The notes below the pieces were generated by a model. The model ran no database searches and was not told where the DNA came from. It saw only the letters and a list, made by a program, of their open reading frames with translations. A program made the translations under genes and the position numbers. Positions 16,501 through 61,241 of a DNA stretch of 64,000 nt are shown here, piece after piece (position 1 is the first letter of the stretch; each line of letters begins with the position of its first letter). The DNA comes from Candidatus Caenarcanales bacterium (lineage in GTDB: Bacteria; Cyanobacteriota; Vampirovibrionia; 2-02-FULL-35-15): positions 186,001 to 250,000 of the forward strand of contig JAGVKQ010000005.1 of the NCBI GenBank assembly GCA_020050435.1, in the 5' to 3' direction.

Positions 16501-17739
16501 ATATTAAACTGTTTTGGACTTGGAGATAAGAAAAAGGGTGAAGAAAGATTAGATGATTTATTGTGTAGACTTCCCCGAGTGTTTCCTAAGGTTCTAGAGT
16601 GGTCAGGTGGCATGATGGCTCTTGGTGGAGTAATTAGACTTATTAGTATTCCTTTTGTAGGTGAAGAAAGTATTGTAAATAAAACTGGATATTGGGTCTC
16701 GAATTTAGTTAGAGCAGCTTCTGCATTAGCTGGTGGATTACGTGGGGAGTTAAATGTAAATAAATATCATGATATTTTTGGCGGTGAATTAATAAATGTC
16801 TTTTCTGCTCTCTTTCTTGGTAATGGAGCTAAGCATGCTGGACTTGGACTAGGGAATCTTTTACTGTTTGGTGGGAGAGGAAGACAAAGAGCTCAGATAA
16901 TGCAAAGAGTTAATAGTCATACCCTGTCAGATATTAAGAGCGGTAAATTAGAAAGTCTTGATCCAAGAGAATATACTAGAGATGTAACAAAGTTTGCAGC
17001 GGAAGATTTAATTGTAAATATTACAAATGCTGCTAAGAGAGCTAAATGTCCAGTATTGCTTGCTGAAGTAGGAGCTACACTTTTTAGTTCTCTTCTAACT
17101 CCAGGGAAGATAGTTTATGATGTTATTAGGGAACCAAAATTAATTTTTTCGTGGACAAAAAGAGAATCAGAAAAATCAGGTAAGGTGTATTCCACCATTC
17201 CTAGTGCAGGACATTTACTATCTATTACTGGTTTGATTAGTGGTATTGGAGCTATTATAGCTGGGACATTAGGAAGAAGTGAAAAAGCTGGTGATATAGC
17301 AGATCATGGATTTAACTTCTTGGGAGATTGGGCTATTAAGATCTCATCAGCAATCCCTGCTCTTAGTATCATTGTAAATGGATGGGAAGTAGCTAATAAT
17401 GCTCAAGGACTTCCATTGTCTACTAGAAATTTAGATGGTACAGAAATGAAATATAATCCTAAGAGAGCTGGATTTGCACAAATGGCTGCTGGTGGTTTAT
17501 ATGGAATACTTCCATGGTTTGGATTACATAAAGACTCTGTAGCAGCAGCATATGATGTAGCAAATGGTTTGTATTTTGGATTGCCAGGAATGAATATGAG
17601 TGTGGCTGAAGAAGAAAAACTAAATACATTAAAAATGGTTGAAGATGAGCGTACTAAAGGTCAAAAACTATTCTTAAATCAACATGAAACCTTGGCAGAA
17701 ATAGCTAGTAGAGCAGTAGCCCCAGTACAAGCAGCCTAA
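13549..17739 (+). CDS. Giant protein of unknown function with hydrophobic C-terminal third
   Basis: This 1396-residue protein is not one I recognise. The TTG at 13549 is preceded by AAAGGGG at 8 nt. An ATG two codons later would be 14 nt away, so TTG is preferred. Residues 1 to about 1000 are soluble-looking, without a signal peptide. They are rich in charged and aromatic residues, with His-rich spots (YSPQFHYSHNCLGYHMAK near 145; DWSHHEGVRNRTREL near 465). From about 1010 to 1370 there are about seven glycine/alanine-rich hydrophobic segments, such as GGMMALGGVIRLISIPFV, HLLSITGLISGIGAIIAG and AAGGLYGILPWFGL. The C-terminus ends in a short polar tail. A cytoplasmic domain anchored to the membrane is plausible. 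Codon use is like its neighbours, so recent transfer is not indicated. Confidence 0.8.
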   Translation: MTMTAPVGPVDSGQSSLGADTLKASDTERTKPPLIQAASTVQVPEVEAGTVFTSWGRAIGVLPADNKPFLDFLQQIYDIHNLPKEQRQEYILKNVELVRSTAESVIEKGKENFNNGKPEWAGVTKSSGIPMSTQLEDLTGGYSPQFHYSHNCLGYHMAKAVKEGLKLFESEDCDGTFVDKTLRTFATRRFQSLRQIYEHFQAINASTELLDTTWTVNTARSLFSTQILARNEGIEGSTTMGEHYSAFSEIAGTSPADQIDLANRMGVSAFNGAVRHEPSKAGEKPKPLYISPKLMQVDYMFRFLGDDFLDKFFIKPTLEHEYSAAEPKGLTDYIFQTQKILGEVYYTDYLKIAQAYEDTVQVGKSWDDFQVEIKRLIKDEDLKIIGSTPLDETTQNRMIGSKIPNYYDLLENSPQEFFFTVTNSRITSICCHFFNSRGVPKEGSIDDAKDKLIDWSHHEGVRNRTRELNRGCMHTQPEIRKYVEENQRILREDGVKAYIDKRLLDHMMHLYKKDDFKNSKVFDIVFDEIEHSHKLTFKKEFLESLNSYDHTRNYVYELKEKLQDGTAPERELAKYLDDIFPVDILDRSLLSDTYDLDPSSKTDGLYLFPDELFCVNNKNQFTGHDSFISIFNLEAKSNALNPDGNYYFELQPNTSKGEVIPSPRRCFEEGLFPIHHGDTLSDLDAQIACLERGGLAIVPYTLIKDGNIYEAAFKAREKYATVVEESINIVTSGFHVTKRQIPTFDVDQGRMLSDEELALQDWNERLANVDSALTNVKQLFANGAYGIEKNKETENYKKVIITEDGNKDYVRDESGNILEFTKDEIITDIKRFYLGRVVRMPNPSAKVRCHSEIIQLLTGVNLTLDENSEFATKAIERDRYISSHIPKSRAWFIYRDDHNEAFYRRKEDGCLVSLKTGKVLTYGVENVLKRREKIAEGHILNKCVGEKIDGIDQEVTIDFLNKILQEDKHLPAVSQKSGLFSNNLILNCFGLGDKKKGEERLDDLLCRLPRVFPKVLEWSGGMMALGGVIRLISIPFVGEESIVNKTGYWVSNLVRAASALAGGLRGELNVNKYHDIFGGELINVFSALFLGNGAKHAGLGLGNLLLFGGRGRQRAQIMQRVNSHTLSDIKSGKLESLDPREYTRDVTKFAAEDLIVNITNAAKRAKCPVLLAEVGATLFSSLLTPGKIVYDVIREPKLIFSWTKRESEKSGKVYSTIPSAGHLLSITGLISGIGAIIAGTLGRSEKAGDIADHGFNFLGDWAIKISSAIPALSIIVNGWEVANNAQGLPLSTRNLDGTEMKYNPKRAGFAQMAAGGLYGILPWFGLHKDSVAAAYDVANGLYFGLPGMNMSVAEEEKLNTLKMVEDERTKGQKLFLNQHETLAEIASRAVAPVQAA

Positions 17740-19637: not shown

Positions 19638-20309
19638 CTATTCCCTACCATTTTCCACACACAAGCTATGGTTTTTCTTACCAATGGCATCTATTCTAAT
19701 TACATTGAAACCATTATCAATAGCTAATTTCTCTATTCTTTTTAAACCTGAATAGGTGGTTAATCTTCCACCTTTTGAAAGCAATTTAAAAATAGAAAGT
19801 AAAAACTCTTCAGTCCAAAACTGAGGTGCTACTTTAAAGCTAAAAGGATCAAAAAATATAATGTCATAAGTATTATTTTCTATGGATTTTAAAGCATTGA
19901 AAATGTCATCTACAATAAGTTTAATTTTTATCTTTTCATACTCTATATAATTTCTCTGTTCAAGGTCTTGTAAGAGCTTTTTCCATTTAATGTAACTTTT
20001 AGGGACTTTAATTTCTTTTATTTTTTCTATTATATTTCTATCTTTTTCAATGGCAGTAATGGAGATGCTTGGATTGTTGCCTAGCTTGTAAATAAAATCA
20101 ATTACTACTCCACTGTTATATCCAAGTCCAAAAAAAAGATCTAGAATTTTTACTTCTCTTGAGAAAGATTGCTTTAAAATATCCTCACAAGGAGCAACAA
20201 ATTTATGCAGCGATTCAGTTATTGGACCGATTTTACTGTGATAAGCTTCTTGAAATTCACTGTTAAAGAACGTTTGAGCACCATCTGGACAAAAGATGCT
20301 GTTACTCAC
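19638..20309 (-). CDS. MnmC-like (DUF752) SAM-dependent methyltransferase
   Basis: The 223-residue protein begins with the DUF752 signature (CPDGAQTFFNSEFQEAYHSK, then GPITESLHKF), followed by the SAM-binding ILDLFFGLGYNSG, an acidic IEKD after strand 2, and YDIIFFDPFSFKVAPQFWT. This is the methyltransferase half of MnmC, which completes 5-methylaminomethyl-(2-thio)uridine at the tRNA wobble position. The oxidase half is absent, as in several bacteria with stand-alone versions. Its start codon overlaps the stop of the small upstream gene (ATGA), so the two are translationally coupled. Its activity on tRNA is inferred from the family. Confidence 0.8.
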   Translation of the reverse strand: MSNSIFCPDGAQTFFNSEFQEAYHSKIGPITESLHKFVAPCEDILKQSFSREVKILDLFFGLGYNSGVVIDFIYKLGNNPSISITAIEKDRNIIEKIKEIKVPKSYIKWKKLLQDLEQRNYIEYEKIKIKLIVDDIFNALKSIENNTYDIIFFDPFSFKVAPQFWTEEFLLSIFKLLSKGGRLTTYSGLKRIEKLAIDNGFNVIRIDAIGKKNHSLCVENGRE

Positions 20310-20573: not shown

Positions 20574-20601
20574 GATTAGACGTTATAAATAACGTCTCTA
20601 C
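20574..20601. repeat. 28-bp palindrome supplying a stop codon (GTAGAGACG type)
   Basis: The minus-strand arm is GTAGAGACGTTATT and the opposite arm GATTAGACGTTATA. The first four bases on the minus strand (GTAG) contain the TAG stop of the 73-aa gene at 20598. Confidence 0.85.
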
Positions 20602-20861: not shown

Positions 20862-21596
20862 ATGACAGGGAAAGTAATTAATCTAGACCTTTGCTACCTA
20901 TACCCAAAGCTCCTAAATATCTATGGTGATAGAGGAAATGTATTGACTCTGTCTTATAGATGTAGCCAGAGAAATATAGGATTAAATATTACTACGATAG
21001 GCATTGGAGAAAGTGTTGATTATGAAAAATTTGATCTTTACTTTATAGGTGGTGGGCAGGATGAACAACAACTTCTTGTAGCAAATGATCTCCAGGAGAA
21101 GAAGGAGACTTTAATAAAAGCCATTGAAAAAAATGCCATTTTTCTTGCTATTTGTGGTGGATATCAACTCCTTGGAAAATATTATAAAACACCTGATGGT
21201 TCTGAATTGAAAGGGATTGATGCTCTGGATCTATATACAGTGGCTGGAAATAAGAGAATGATTGGAAATGTACTTTGTAGAGAAATTGAATCAGAAGAAA
21301 CACTGGTCGGATTTGAAAACCATAGTGGGAAAACTTTTTTAGGAAAATCATTAAAACCTTTAGCTAAAGTCATTCGCGGTGGCGGAAACAATGGTGAAGA
21401 TGGTTTTGAAGGTGTCAGGTATAAAAATGTTTTTGGTACTTATTTACATGGATCTCTTTTACCTAAGAATCCATTTTTAACAGATAAATTAATAAAGCTT
21501 GCTCTTGAAAGAAAAGGAATTTCTGCACCTTTTATAAATATCGATAGTTCTATAGAAGATATTGCGCATAAAAAGGCCGTGAATCTATCGTATTAG
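20862..21596 (+). CDS. gatD: GatD-like glutamine amidotransferase (lipid II isoglutaminyl synthase, glutaminase subunit)
   Basis: The 244-residue protein has the CobB/CobQ-type class I glutaminase pattern. NLDLCYLYPKLLNIYGDRGN is the GatD hallmark start. GGGQDEQQ follows, then the nucleophile Cys98 in FLAICGGYQLLG and the catalytic His196 in GTYLHGSLLPKNP. With MurT, GatD amidates the alpha-carboxyl of D-Glu in the peptidoglycan stem peptide. No murT is found next to it here, where most genomes place it. The partner must be elsewhere, or the protein has another ligase partner. A 28-bp palindrome begins directly after the TAG. Confidence 0.85.
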   Translation: MTGKVINLDLCYLYPKLLNIYGDRGNVLTLSYRCSQRNIGLNITTIGIGESVDYEKFDLYFIGGGQDEQQLLVANDLQEKKETLIKAIEKNAIFLAICGGYQLLGKYYKTPDGSELKGIDALDLYTVAGNKRMIGNVLCREIESEETLVGFENHSGKTFLGKSLKPLAKVIRGGGNNGEDGFEGVRYKNVFGTYLHGSLLPKNPFLTDKLIKLALERKGISAPFINIDSSIEDIAHKKAVNLSY

Positions 21597-21624
21597 GAGA
21601 GACGCCCCGCCGGGGCGTCTTTAC
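21597..21624. repeat. 28-bp palindrome directly after gatD stop
   Basis: The arms GAGAGACGCCCCGC and CGGGGCGTCTTTAC are inverted copies (perfect over 10-11 bp). It can fold as a GC-rich hairpin and may terminate gatD. It touches the first copy of the duplicated M16 gene end. Confidence 0.85.
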
Positions 21625-21744
21625 GACAATTTAAATTCTTTTGGTAAATTTCTTTTAGGTCGTACAGACATCCCATTGGGATGTCTCTTCTAATGCACCT
21701 TACGATAGCTTAAATTCTTTTGGCAAATTCCGTTTAGGTCCTAC
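21621..21744. repeat. Duplicated 3' end of the M16 peptidase gene (two copies, 79-bp period)
   Basis: Copy A (21621-21664, minus strand) would encode VRPKRNLPKEFKLS-stop. Copy B (21700-21744), the functional end of the peptidase gene, encodes the same from GPKRNLPKEFKLS-stop. The two copies differ at several silent sites, and a 28-bp palindrome lies between them. Copy A is outside the gene because copy B already has a stop. Confidence 0.9.
21662..21689. repeat. 28-bp palindrome between the duplicated gene ends
   Basis: The arms GTACAGACATCCCA and TTGGGATGTCTCTT are inverted copies over about 11 bp. It belongs by length and end sequence to the same family as the other 28-bp elements. Confidence 0.8.
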
Positions 21745-22965
21745 CACTACCAGAGTAAAATATTTTGGATCAAAAATATCTTCAGAAAGCTTAATTATGT
21801 TTTCATTGGTTATTGATTGTATGGAATTATTTATTTCTTCAACTGATAAAAATCTTTTATAATAAAGCTCATAGAGGGCATTCCTGAATGCTCTTACTTT
21901 GCTGGATTCAAGTTCAATTAAAAGGCTTGTACGCAGTTGCATTTTTGATCTTTCTAATTCATCTTTTTTTAATCCATGTTTTTTAATGCTATTGAGTTCT
22001 TTTAATACTAAGTCCAATACTTTTTGGGAATCATTACCTGTGGTAGCAGCATAAATGCCGAATAATCCACCAAGTTTATTAGTGTGATAGTAAGATGAAA
22101 TTGTATAAGCCAGTCCTCTTTTTTCTCTAATTTCCTGAAACAATCTTGAGCTGCTCCCATTTCCAAGAGCCGTATCTATAACAGCAAGAGTGTATCTGTC
22201 TTCTTCGTATATTGAAGTTCCTTTTGTTGCAAAGCTTAAGTAAGCTTGTTCAATGTCTTTGTCTTCTATAAAAATACTAGGAGTGATTTGTAAAGGAAGA
22301 ACATCTTTTTTTTCAAGTTTTCTTTTTAATCCTTTTGTCATCTCTTCTGTCTTTTTTATTACTTTATCTAAGTCATATTCTCCAGCTAATGAAATAACTA
22401 TATTGTCAGGAGTATAAAGCTTATTTAAATAATTGAAGACATCTTCTCTTTTTAAATTTGTTATTGTTTCAGCTATTCCTGTTATGGGTCTTCCCATTGG
22501 ATGATCTTTCCAGAAAATTTCATAAAGTTTATCTTGAGCAAGATCTTCTGGAGTATCCTTGTACATTTTTATTTCTTCCAGAATTACATGTCTTTCAAGC
22601 TCAAAATCATCATTATCAAGTCTTGTATTGAATAGCATATCTAAAAACAATTCAAGTGGAATAAGAGCATATTCACTTAAGACCATTGTATGGAAGCAGG
22701 TGTTTTCTCTATCAGTAAAAGCATTTAAATTTGCCCCAACATTTTCACTTTCTTCTGCTAAATCTAATGCTGTTCTGGATTTACTGCCTTTGAAAACCAC
22801 ATGTTCAATAAAGTGTGAAATCCCATTGTTATTTAAATCTTCATGAACAGAACCAGCATTTATCCAGATACTAAGTGAACAAGCCAATGCACCGGGGATT
22901 TTTTCCGATATTATTGTTATTCCATTATCTAATACTACCTTTTCAGGCAACTTGAACTCAGTCAT
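21700..22965 (-). CDS. M16-family zinc peptidase (processing peptidase-like)
   Basis: The 421-residue single-module M16 protein carries the inverted zinc motif H51-F-I-E54-H55 in GISHFIEHVVFKG, followed by the third ligand region at about E131 in ILEEIKMYKD. LNAFTDRENTCFH matches the family. The C-terminal inactive domain includes GNGSSSRLFQEIREKRGLAY, a strong hallmark of the bacterial PqqL/mitochondrial processing-peptidase-like group. No signal peptide is visible, so cytoplasmic. Its last 14 codons are duplicated just downstream beside palindromic repeats. It is 2 bp downstream of the matrixin-like gene on the same strand. The specific substrate is unknown. Confidence 0.93.
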   Translation of the reverse strand: MTEFKLPEKVVLDNGITIISEKIPGALACSLSIWINAGSVHEDLNNNGISHFIEHVVFKGSKSRTALDLAEESENVGANLNAFTDRENTCFHTMVLSEYALIPLELFLDMLFNTRLDNDDFELERHVILEEIKMYKDTPEDLAQDKLYEIFWKDHPMGRPITGIAETITNLKREDVFNYLNKLYTPDNIVISLAGEYDLDKVIKKTEEMTKGLKRKLEKKDVLPLQITPSIFIEDKDIEQAYLSFATKGTSIYEEDRYTLAVIDTALGNGSSSRLFQEIREKRGLAYTISSYYHTNKLGGLFGIYAATTGNDSQKVLDLVLKELNSIKKHGLKKDELERSKMQLRTSLLIELESSKVRAFRNALYELYYKRFLSVEEINNSIQSITNENIIKLSEDIFDPKYFTLVVVGPKRNLPKEFKLS

Positions 22966-58706: not shown

Positions 58707-61241
58707 ATGAAATATAAGTGGAATATTAAAGAACATAATAATATATCAAAAGAATTTTTAGAAATAGCATTCAATTCAGAAATAATTGCAAAAATGCTTT
58801 TGAATAGAGGAATTGATTCACCTCAAAAAGCTAAAGAATATTTATATCCAGAAGAATATACCCCTTCAAGACCTGAAGAAATTCCTGGTCTTGTAAAAGC
58901 AAAAGAAAGAATAATAAAAGCCATAAATGAAAATGAAAAAATAACTATTTTTGGTGATTATGATGTAGATGGCACTACTTCTGCTGCTTGTCTTATTCTG
59001 ACTCTAAAACAATTTACAAATAATATTGATTTTTATATTCCAAATAGATTGAGTGAAGGCTATGGATTAAATCTTGAAGCTGTTAGAGCGATTGCGAAAA
59101 AAAGTAAGAGGGCGGGTCACGACACGCCCCTACTCATCACATGTGATTGCGGAATTACAAATGTAAAAGAAGTAGAGCTGGCTAATGAGCTGGGAATGGA
59201 TGTAATTATTACTGATCATCATTCACTTCCAGAAATTTTACCCCCTGCTCATGCAATCTTAAACCCGAAACAATTACCTGAAGGACATAAACTTCACTTT
59301 TTACCAGGTGTTGGTGTGGCATATAAGTTAGCTGAGGCTATTCTTGAAGATATGTGTCATTCCCGGCTTGATCGGGAATCCATACCATTGAAAGACCTGG
59401 ATTCCCATTTACATGGGAATGACAAAAAAAACAATCCAATTGCTCATACTGAGTTGCTTGATCTTGTTACTTTAGGCATGATTGCAGATCTAGCACCACT
59501 TGTAGATGAGAACAGATATCTTGTCCAAATTGGCTTACCAAGGCTTGCATATACTAAGAAATTGGGGCTTAGGGAATTATTAAGAGTTTGTGGATTGAGT
59601 GCTCCACAAGGTGCAGATGTTGTACGAGGTAAAGACGTTGTACACAACGTCTCTACAGAGCACATTGGTTTTGGAATAGCACCTAGAATTAACGCTGTAG
59701 GCAGACTTACTGATGCAAATCTTGCTGTAAAACTTATGACTACAGAAGATTTGCTTGAAGCCGTAAATCTCGCTACAGAGTTAGAATTTCAAAACAGACA
59801 AAGACAAACTCTTTGTGAAGAGACAGTAAAAGATGCAATTTCTCTGGTCTCTGAAGAAGTAGATTTTGAAAAAGATAAATGTATAATTATTGCTAAAGAA
59901 AATTGGCACCATGGAATTATAGGAATTGTAGCTTCTAGAGTATTAGAAAAGTTTAGTTTGCCTACCCTTTTGATTTGCATAGATAAAGAACAAAACATTG
60001 CCAGAGGATCAGGTAGAAGTATTGGTGCTTTAAATATAGTAGATGTATTGAATGAATGTTCTTCTCATCTTGAAAAATTTGGAGGACATAAAGCTGCATG
60101 TGGTCTTTCTATAAAACCTGAAAATATAGAATCTTTTATTGATAAGTTTAAAAATACTACTAATAAACTTTTAGAAGGACATGATATTAGTCCTGTATTA
60201 ATGGTGGATTCTAACCTTTCTATTTCAGATGTAAATATTGATTTAATAGAAAAAATAAATAAGCTTTCTCCTTTTGGTTTTGGAAATAAAATGCCTATTT
60301 TTGCAAGTGATGAAGTTGAAATAGTTGGACTTAAATCCATAGGAAAAGATGGGCAACACTTGAAATTGACACTTTTAAGTGTAATTGCGAGGGGTGACGT
60401 AAAAACCTTTGAAGCCCTCATCTGGAACTATGACAAAAGCCATCCTTTTGAAATCGGTGAAAATATAAAAATTGCTTATACGCCTAAAATAAACTCTTTT
60501 AATGGAAACACTTCTATTCAGTTAGAAGTTAAAGACTGTGAGAGAGTAGAACAAGTGATAGAAGTCAGAAATCAGCCGCCAAAGGCGAGCCTCGCCCAAT
60601 TGGGCGGGAAATCAGAAGATGGCATAGCTGTTTTTGACTATAGGATGAAAACAGAAGAATGTATTAATGAAGTTGGTAATTCTGTGCTCTTTTTCGCCGA
60701 AGTTAGCCAAAAAGATTTTTTACCTTTAAAAACTTATTCCAGAAATAATATTTCAAAGTGTGAAAATCTTGTTTTTCTTGATCTTCCTCCTGCTGAAAAC
60801 ATTTTCTTAGATGTAGTTAATAAAGCACAACCGAAAAATGTTTACTTGGCTTATTCACCCGAACATTTAGAAATGAATCCTCACTTTTTAATGAGAAGAT
60901 TAATAGGTATGATTCGCTATGTTGTAAATAATAAAGACTCAAAAGTAAGTGAAATACAATTACAATCTGCTTTAGGAATTAATAAAACTGCTTTAGCATA
61001 TGCCCTTCAAAGCTTAGAAAAGATAGGTTTTTTGGGGATTAGAAGAGGAAGTGATGTCTTAAATATAGATATTCTTGAAACTTCTCGACAGAATTTTGAA
61101 GAGTTAATAGAATATAACCTGTTGGTTTCAGAGATGAAAAAAATTCAAAAGTTTCACTTAACTTTGCTTCAGGCAAAAATCAATGAAATAGGACAGATCT
61201 TAAATAAACAAAAGGAATTAGCAAATGTCAGAAATAATTAA
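58707..61241 (+). CDS. recJ: Single-stranded-DNA-specific exonuclease RecJ, long form with repeat insertions
   Basis: This 844-residue DHH phosphoesterase starts with EEIPGLVKAKERI, then TIFGDYDVDGTTSAACLI (motif I), ITCDCGITN, VIITDHHSLPE (DHH motif), NPKQ, LVTLGMIADLAPL and GFGIAPRINAVGRL. Next come HHGIIGIVASRV and SGRS, with GGHKAACG (DHHA1), and an OB-fold. A winged-helix-like C-terminal extension (about 680-830; NKTALAYALQSLEKIGFLGI) makes it longer than the usual 560-580, as in the long Bacillus-type form. It degrades ssDNA 5'-3' in repair. At least four repeats are inserted in frame: 59106-59133, 59356-59423, 59629-59656 and 60575-60608. Confidence 0.95.
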   Translation: MKYKWNIKEHNNISKEFLEIAFNSEIIAKMLLNRGIDSPQKAKEYLYPEEYTPSRPEEIPGLVKAKERIIKAINENEKITIFGDYDVDGTTSAACLILTLKQFTNNIDFYIPNRLSEGYGLNLEAVRAIAKKSKRAGHDTPLLITCDCGITNVKEVELANELGMDVIITDHHSLPEILPPAHAILNPKQLPEGHKLHFLPGVGVAYKLAEAILEDMCHSRLDRESIPLKDLDSHLHGNDKKNNPIAHTELLDLVTLGMIADLAPLVDENRYLVQIGLPRLAYTKKLGLRELLRVCGLSAPQGADVVRGKDVVHNVSTEHIGFGIAPRINAVGRLTDANLAVKLMTTEDLLEAVNLATELEFQNRQRQTLCEETVKDAISLVSEEVDFEKDKCIIIAKENWHHGIIGIVASRVLEKFSLPTLLICIDKEQNIARGSGRSIGALNIVDVLNECSSHLEKFGGHKAACGLSIKPENIESFIDKFKNTTNKLLEGHDISPVLMVDSNLSISDVNIDLIEKINKLSPFGFGNKMPIFASDEVEIVGLKSIGKDGQHLKLTLLSVIARGDVKTFEALIWNYDKSHPFEIGENIKIAYTPKINSFNGNTSIQLEVKDCERVEQVIEVRNQPPKASLAQLGGKSEDGIAVFDYRMKTEECINEVGNSVLFFAEVSQKDFLPLKTYSRNNISKCENLVFLDLPPAENIFLDVVNKAQPKNVYLAYSPEHLEMNPHFLMRRLIGMIRYVVNNKDSKVSEIQLQSALGINKTALAYALQSLEKIGFLGIRRGSDVLNIDILETSRQNFEELIEYNLLVSEMKKIQKFHLTLLQAKINEIGQILNKQKELANVRNN
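59106..59133. repeat. 28-bp palindrome in frame in recJ, copy 1
   Basis: The arms AAGAGGGCGGGTCA and CGACACGCCCCTAC are imperfect inverted copies. It begins on a codon first base and is read K-R-A-G-H-D-T-P-L, the same frame and pattern as the leuS and hisH copies. It lies before ITCDCG. Confidence 0.85.
59356..59423. repeat. 68-bp REP-like inverted repeat in frame in recJ
   Basis: The ends GTCATTCCCG and GGGAATGAC are inverted copies, with internal nested repeats GGGAATCC and GGATTCCC. It is read as CHSRLDRESIPLKDLDSHLH and continues GND. The same repeat type is widespread in other bacterial genomes. Confidence 0.9.
59629..59656. repeat. 28-bp palindrome in frame in recJ, copy 2
   Basis: The arms GTAAAGACGTTGTA and CACAACGTCTCTAC are inverted copies. 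Here the element begins at the second base of a codon, unlike the other five coding copies, and is read G-K-D-V-V-H-N-V-S-T. Confidence 0.9.
60575..60608. repeat. GC-rich palindromic insertion in recJ
   Basis: GCCGCCAAAGGCG is followed by CTCGCCCAA|TTGGGCGGG (9-bp arms with one mismatch). It is read P-P-K-A-S-L-A-Q-L-G-G-K. It shares CGCCAAAGGCG with the intergenic element at 18095-18133. Confidence 0.75.

Follow-up and report, generated by a model that had tools for sequence, protein, structure and literature searches.

Organisation of the M16 peptidase locus

The window, a stretch of 64,000 nucleotides, comes from a draft genome of 2.49 Mb in 30 contigs. It carries an intact M16 peptidase gene on the minus strand (21700-22965), which encodes 421 amino acids, contains the Pfam domains PF00675 and PF05193, and is 65-70% identical to its relatives. 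The nearest named relatives are Candidatus Melainabacteria assemblies, approximately 70% identical in the peptidase. The convergent neighbour is an open reading frame (ORF) on the plus strand (20862-21596) for a CobB/CobQ-like glutamine amidotransferase (PF07685). This synteny is maintained in several relatives, where the amidotransferase lies close behind the peptidase, and in genome G001 the gap between the two genes holds another repeat-like sequence.

At the junction of these two genes, the end of the peptidase gene is present twice. Copy B (21700-21744, minus strand) covers the final 14 codons plus the stop codon of the intact gene and is the true end of the 421-aa ORF, reading VGPKRNLPKEFKLS before the stop codon. 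Copy A (21621-21665, minus strand) reads VRPKRNLPKEFKLS before its stop and, by sequence comparison, is probably the displaced end of a diverged peptidase allele. The two are direct repeats of 45 bp, 84% identical (seven differences) and 79 bp apart, which bears out the duplication and the period given in the first-pass annotation of this DNA. The peptidase end is single in every relative inspected, the state that this annotation had proposed looking for.

Read along the minus strand, the order is peptidase end, 13 nt, palindrome 2, copy A, palindrome 1, and the end of the amidotransferase gene. The 13-nt spacer between the peptidase stop and palindrome 2 (21687-21699, assigned to neither strand) reads GGTGCATTAGAAG on the minus strand. 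Palindrome 2 (AGACATCCCATTGGGATGTCT, 21666-21686, plus strand) has the tag GTAC at 21662-21665, while palindrome 1 (AGACGCCCCGGCGGGGCGTCT, 21600-21620, minus strand) has the tag GTAA on the minus strand at 21621-21624, overlapping the TAA stop of copy A. The 40 nt of clear homology in copy A (GACC...TAA) lie between the two tags. There is indeed a palindrome beside each copy, as first annotated, but each is perfect over 21 bp (10-bp arms and a 1-nt loop), and the 28 bp originally given are reached only when the partly paired tags are included. The palindromes have different arms (GCCCCG versus ATCCCA), are oppositely oriented with their tags inwards, and are out of register, lying 0 nt and 13 nt from the respective stop codons. 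Because of these differences in arms, orientation, and spacing, what is repeated is only the gene end, without a palindrome.

A dispersed family of REP-like palindromes

Both palindromes belong to a dispersed family with the structure GTAN-AGAC-arm-loop-arm-GTCT, of which 70 elements were read in 1.2 Mb. The arms vary together, and the GTA[N] tag, mostly GTAA, GTAG or GTAC, adjoins at least 56 of the 70. Genome-wide, the pattern AGACG..CGTCT has 60 matches, as against 7 for a reversed control pattern, and several relatives are likewise rich in it. With many dispersed copies of 20-40 bp and a GTAG-like tag at one end, these elements have the characteristics of REPs. They resemble the GTAG-tagged REP elements (PMC3733652) in their size of 20-30 bp, their GTA[A/C/G] tag and their dispersal, and both kinds often lie next to stop codons, although the last base of the tag is more variable here than in the published GTAG. 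REP termini in the GTAG-tagged superfamily have been reported as a source of stop codons (PMC3733652). Two more AGAC...GTCT elements occur in the window, at 20578-20597 and 59633-59652.

Such elements account for the palindromes, but not for the duplicated gene end. When the flanks of all 70 were compared with random places, no flanking duplication above background was found at the other REPs, and the window alone stood out; some control values came from masked N runs and were disregarded. The palindromes are thus ordinary dispersed repeats and not the cause of the duplication, since other REPs lack flanking duplications above background, the window pair is neither in register nor in the same orientation, and palindromes are missing from several comparable loci (described below). 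The initial suggestion that the duplication is a footprint of palindrome insertion is therefore not supported, with one of 70 family members showing it.

A related possibility is REPIN-like capture, in which a RAYT transposase moved an inverted REP pair with copy A as its spacer. The two window REPs, 45 bp from each other, face in opposite directions with their tags inwards, and TT dimers spaced 20-100 bp apart have been described for GTAG REPs (PMC3733652). The genome also encodes two Y1_Tnp (IS200/RAYT-like) genes, at C5:121756 (L147:1756-1986) and C19:113664 (L201:13664-14218); palindromes occur in or near both, and their sequences differ from those of the window family. However, REPs in this genome are nearly always single, with two pairs within 250 bp among the 70, and the 87-bp unit is matched in full at the window locus only. 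Capture of this kind would also give no reason why the spacer should be the tail of the adjoining gene, and would leave the REP-free loci unexplained. We regard it as very improbable.

Silent divergence between the gene ends

Of the seven single-base differences that separate copy A from copy B, six leave the encoded peptide unchanged; the other one (GGA/CGA) adjoins the GTAC tag of palindrome 2. None of the six changes in the 12-codon stretch that runs from PKRN to KLS alters an amino acid, against approximately five expected to do so under random substitution (P ~1e-4, under a simple random-substitution model without transition bias). The same signature recurs at the other loci described below. 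Silent changes make up 7/7 differences in the tail of a TPR-metallopeptidase-like gene and 8/8 in the second displaced copy of a uracil-DNA glycosylase (UDG) gene, and, in the relative G007, 5/5 in guaA and 6/6 in a gene for a 491-aa protein. As a positive case, we computed 10 silent and two non-silent differences for icd and icdC of Escherichia coli, where the prophage e14 supplied an icd end of its own. Tails that differ thus vary almost only at silent sites, a pattern that points to divergence while coding, in separate lineages. Tails A and B of the peptidase appear to have diverged in just this way, and the early view that copy A was once translated gains support from the silent changes, which are the mark of translation.

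This pattern bears directly on a tandem duplication of the gene end, whether by slippage at a hairpin, as originally considered, or by insertion of a palindrome that created a long target-site duplication, with the copies diverging later. The direct repeat does adjoin palindromes, and a 78-bp repeat at the end of the peptide deformylase gene is 100% identical, like a fresh duplication. Copies of such origin would start out identical and then change without constraint in the non-coding copy, which should gain amino-acid-changing differences; these are absent, and every codon change tested is silent even though copy A lies outside any coding sequence. The inverted, out-of-register arrangement of the palindromes and the undisturbed flanks of the other REPs also argue against it. 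A strong hairpin precedes just three of nine displaced ends, so that most occur without one, and hairpins as a general cause were rejected. Slippage or insertion with target-site duplication is consequently most unlikely as the source of the repeat.

Displaced gene ends elsewhere in the genome

To place the window locus in its genomic setting, 1371 ORFs in 1.59 Mb of the 2.49-Mb genome were scanned with tblastn for pieces of each gene within 15 kb of that gene, gene starts and gene middles serving as controls. Seven tail copies were found, all downstream and on the same strand, one of them a tandem paralogue; the scan returned a few chance or paralogous matches elsewhere, and no opposite-strand or gene-start copies. 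This bias goes beyond chance. The true cases are six displaced tails behind five genes, the window included. In each, an orphan 3' end lies downstream of an intact gene on the same strand, which is the arrangement characteristic of displacement at Rhs and type VI secretion (T6SS) loci. Candidates on C13 and at C27:79k were dropped as tandem paralogues, those on C21/C14 and C9 as low-complexity repeats, and C19:106k/114k as another palindromic repeat.

The TPR-metallopeptidase-like gene (378 aa, C12:116937-118073, L136:16937-18073) has its last 18 codons again 157 bp further on (L136:18230-18286). Short GAGCCTATGTTCCCAT tandem repeats occur between these tails. On contig C19 (L199:5061-8659), a 50-codon tail of an ABC-F ATPase gene is displaced by approximately 1.8 kb. 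At the peptide deformylase locus on contig C27 (L174:4095-6742), the identical 78-bp copies flank an antisense open frame of 601 aa without a Pfam match, and the locus looks like a recent insertion.

The UDG locus on contig C22 (L185:11430-15170) retains a 3-kb insert that holds an antisense 885-aa ORF and two displaced tails, and is without an integrase. The two tails are the product of serial events, which are not seen at the window locus. One of them, NEWNKAPGSPK, resembles the G007 orthologue (HEWNKAPDSPK) more closely than it does the end of its own gene (TDWNTAPGSPK), as would be expected of a tail from another lineage. The 885-aa ORF has no Pfam or PADLOC match; a stretch with LLHGSE and ESCYSES is caspase-like by eye.

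Displaced gene ends in the relative G007

In G007, of which 397 kb and the UDG locus were covered, the arrangement recurs at several genes. The closest match to the window is guaA (L224:13496-15264), the end of which recurs 89 bp further downstream, beyond a palindromic repeat; the order 'gene end, palindrome, gene end' that had been proposed as a check is therefore present outside the window. Among 117 genomes of the class, 69 had a match to the guaA tail, and the extra copy occurs solely in G007. The gene for the 491-aa protein (C3:244k) has tails 20 bp apart. In DprA (L240:17192-18966), the C-terminal 57 codons are repeated 489 bp downstream, and the two copies share an identical middle part of approximately 85 bp, with divergence to either side of it. 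Lastly, the tails of UDG in G007 enclose a PemK-like toxin gene and a small upstream ORF. No convincing displaced tail was found in 400 kb of G009, nor in 78 loci of other phyla (741 kb, in short loci from which distant copies would be missed).

This recurrence weighs upon two further explanations. An assembler that fused two strain haplotypes in a metagenome could have produced the repeat, given that the genome is a 30-contig draft and that short junction repeats could mislead assembly. Two separate assemblies (G000 and G007) nevertheless carry the same signature at multiple loci, some loci hold kilobases of coding cargo, and the UDG copies are serial, all of which make an artefact exceedingly unlikely. 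The second explanation is that the whole gene was duplicated in tandem, that the paralogues diverged under selection, and that the second copy was then deleted except for its last 14 codons. This would yield silent divergence, and a distant second M16 paralogue does exist in G001 and G003. On the other hand, it requires that, in many unrelated genes, a near-complete deletion stopped at almost the same point, and leaves the cargo genes and toxin modules between the copies unexplained. We consider it improbable.

Probable gene-end displacement by recombination

The most probable explanation, to which we assign a probability of roughly 70%, is that the second tail was left behind by recombination with a related species' DNA, a scar of an event that gave the gene a new tail and moved the old one downstream. 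The incoming DNA, from a related species or strain, would have carried a diverged peptidase 3' end with the following 13 nt (21687-21699) and a REP. A first, homologous junction would lie inside the peptidase gene, and a second near the last codons of the resident gene. A circle could have entered by Campbell-type integration, or a linear piece by homology-facilitated illegitimate recombination. Either way, the gene would stay complete with one version of the tail, whether resident or donated, and the other would be left downstream as a non-coding relic of 40-45 nt. REPs often accompany the 3' flanks of genes. The inserted piece at the window amounts to only 34 bp (the 13 nt and the REP); it may represent the donor gene flank alone, or larger cargo may have been lost since.

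The junction coincides exactly with the palindrome 2 tag, GTAC followed by GACC, against GTAG before GACC in the gene itself, with three bases shared; one might speculate that this reflects microhomology, or a nick or preferred break point at the tag. The identical middle of the DprA copies and the UDG relic that is nearer to a relative's orthologue both favour homologous exchange. DNA uptake is a possible source, as the genome encodes a ComEC homologue.

Other features fit displacement less well. The pieces are short (30-180 nt) and clustered at gene ends, which recombination alone does not predict without selection or the loss of longer repeats; longer repeats may have been lost by recombination, leaving short tails only. 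One island, at an antiporter gene on C14, repeats the gene start instead. In addition, the assembly is a draft, and the donor and the empty site would become visible at the DNA level only with a relative of the same genus.

Comparison with known systems

Displacement of gene ends has been described at toxin loci. For Rhs tips, integrase-free displacement via circular intermediates has been proposed, in which homologous recombination moves the old 3' end downstream (PMC2935791), as it would have done here. Serial displacement at Rhs loci creates arrays of orphan ends (PMC2935791), which UDG resembles with its two tails. Rhs genes, however, join unrelated toxin domains to a long conserved core (PMC2935791), whereas the old and new ends at the window encode the same peptide, so that no new C-terminal toxin domain has been gained; the genes here are housekeeping genes, and only short displaced ends are left. 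In Vibrio cholerae, displacement of T6SS effector-immunity modules by homology-facilitated illegitimate recombination has been proposed: homology anchors one junction, the other is illegitimate, and the 3' end of the old gene is left downstream of the new module (PMC5361080). The present loci would share these features. Unlike them, the T6SS events are confined to effector loci under selection for new toxins (PMC5361080).

The prophage e14 in E. coli icd offers another parallel: the gene there is complete, its 3' end is of foreign origin and has diverged silently, and the original end lies displaced downstream. The tails here could accordingly be attL/attR remnants of elements that entered at gene 3' ends by a tyrosine recombinase and were later lost, and the anatomy and silent signature are the same as in icd/icdC. 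However, e14 bears an integrase, while all inserts here are without one, including the UDG insert with its two displaced tails, and none adjoins the window locus. The genome has four tyrosine-recombinase (PF00589) profile matches, none of them at the displaced-tail sites. The sites would be at least five different genes, among which inspection by eye revealed no common core. Remnants of integrative elements are therefore an unlikely source.

The cargo between copies includes the 885-aa ORF (UDG), the 601-aa ORF (peptide deformylase), and the PemK-like toxin module (UDG in G007). It is conceivable, if doubtful, that the 3' ends of housekeeping genes in this lineage of Melainabacteria are general insertion ports for small integrase-free cassettes, and that 21600-21744 is a port emptied of its cargo. 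Cassettes such as toxin-antitoxin modules and large ORFs, flanked by host-gene-end copies of 35-180 bp, would then travel between species by homologous recombination, possibly as circles. The minimal mobile elements of Neisseria are similar, being small cassettes exchanged between conserved flanking genes without a recombinase of their own. To our knowledge, displaced gene tails are not part of their definition.

Significance and additional repeats

Gene-end displacement is already described for toxin loci and prophage sites. The interest rests in the series of loci rather than in the single window locus. The presence of such scars at several housekeeping genes, in two genomes, suggests that recombination between species leaves a legible record, in which each scar would preserve a fragment of an allele now gone from the genome. 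The marker is simple, a complete gene with a second, silently diverged version of its tail behind it, and might be used to map recombination and cassette insertion in uncultured bacteria.

Two further repeats were observed in the genome. On C14, a 61-nt repeat (97% identical) of the start of an Na+/H+ antiporter-like gene (L206:12166-12226 and 19787-19847) flanks an ArsR-like gene and a hydrogenlyase-like operon, in a 5'-end version of the pattern. A 55-nt repeat (98% identical; L208:12173-12227 and 17681-17735) surrounds a 5.5-kb stretch with a gene pair that is AbiE-like by eye and an 893-aa ORF.
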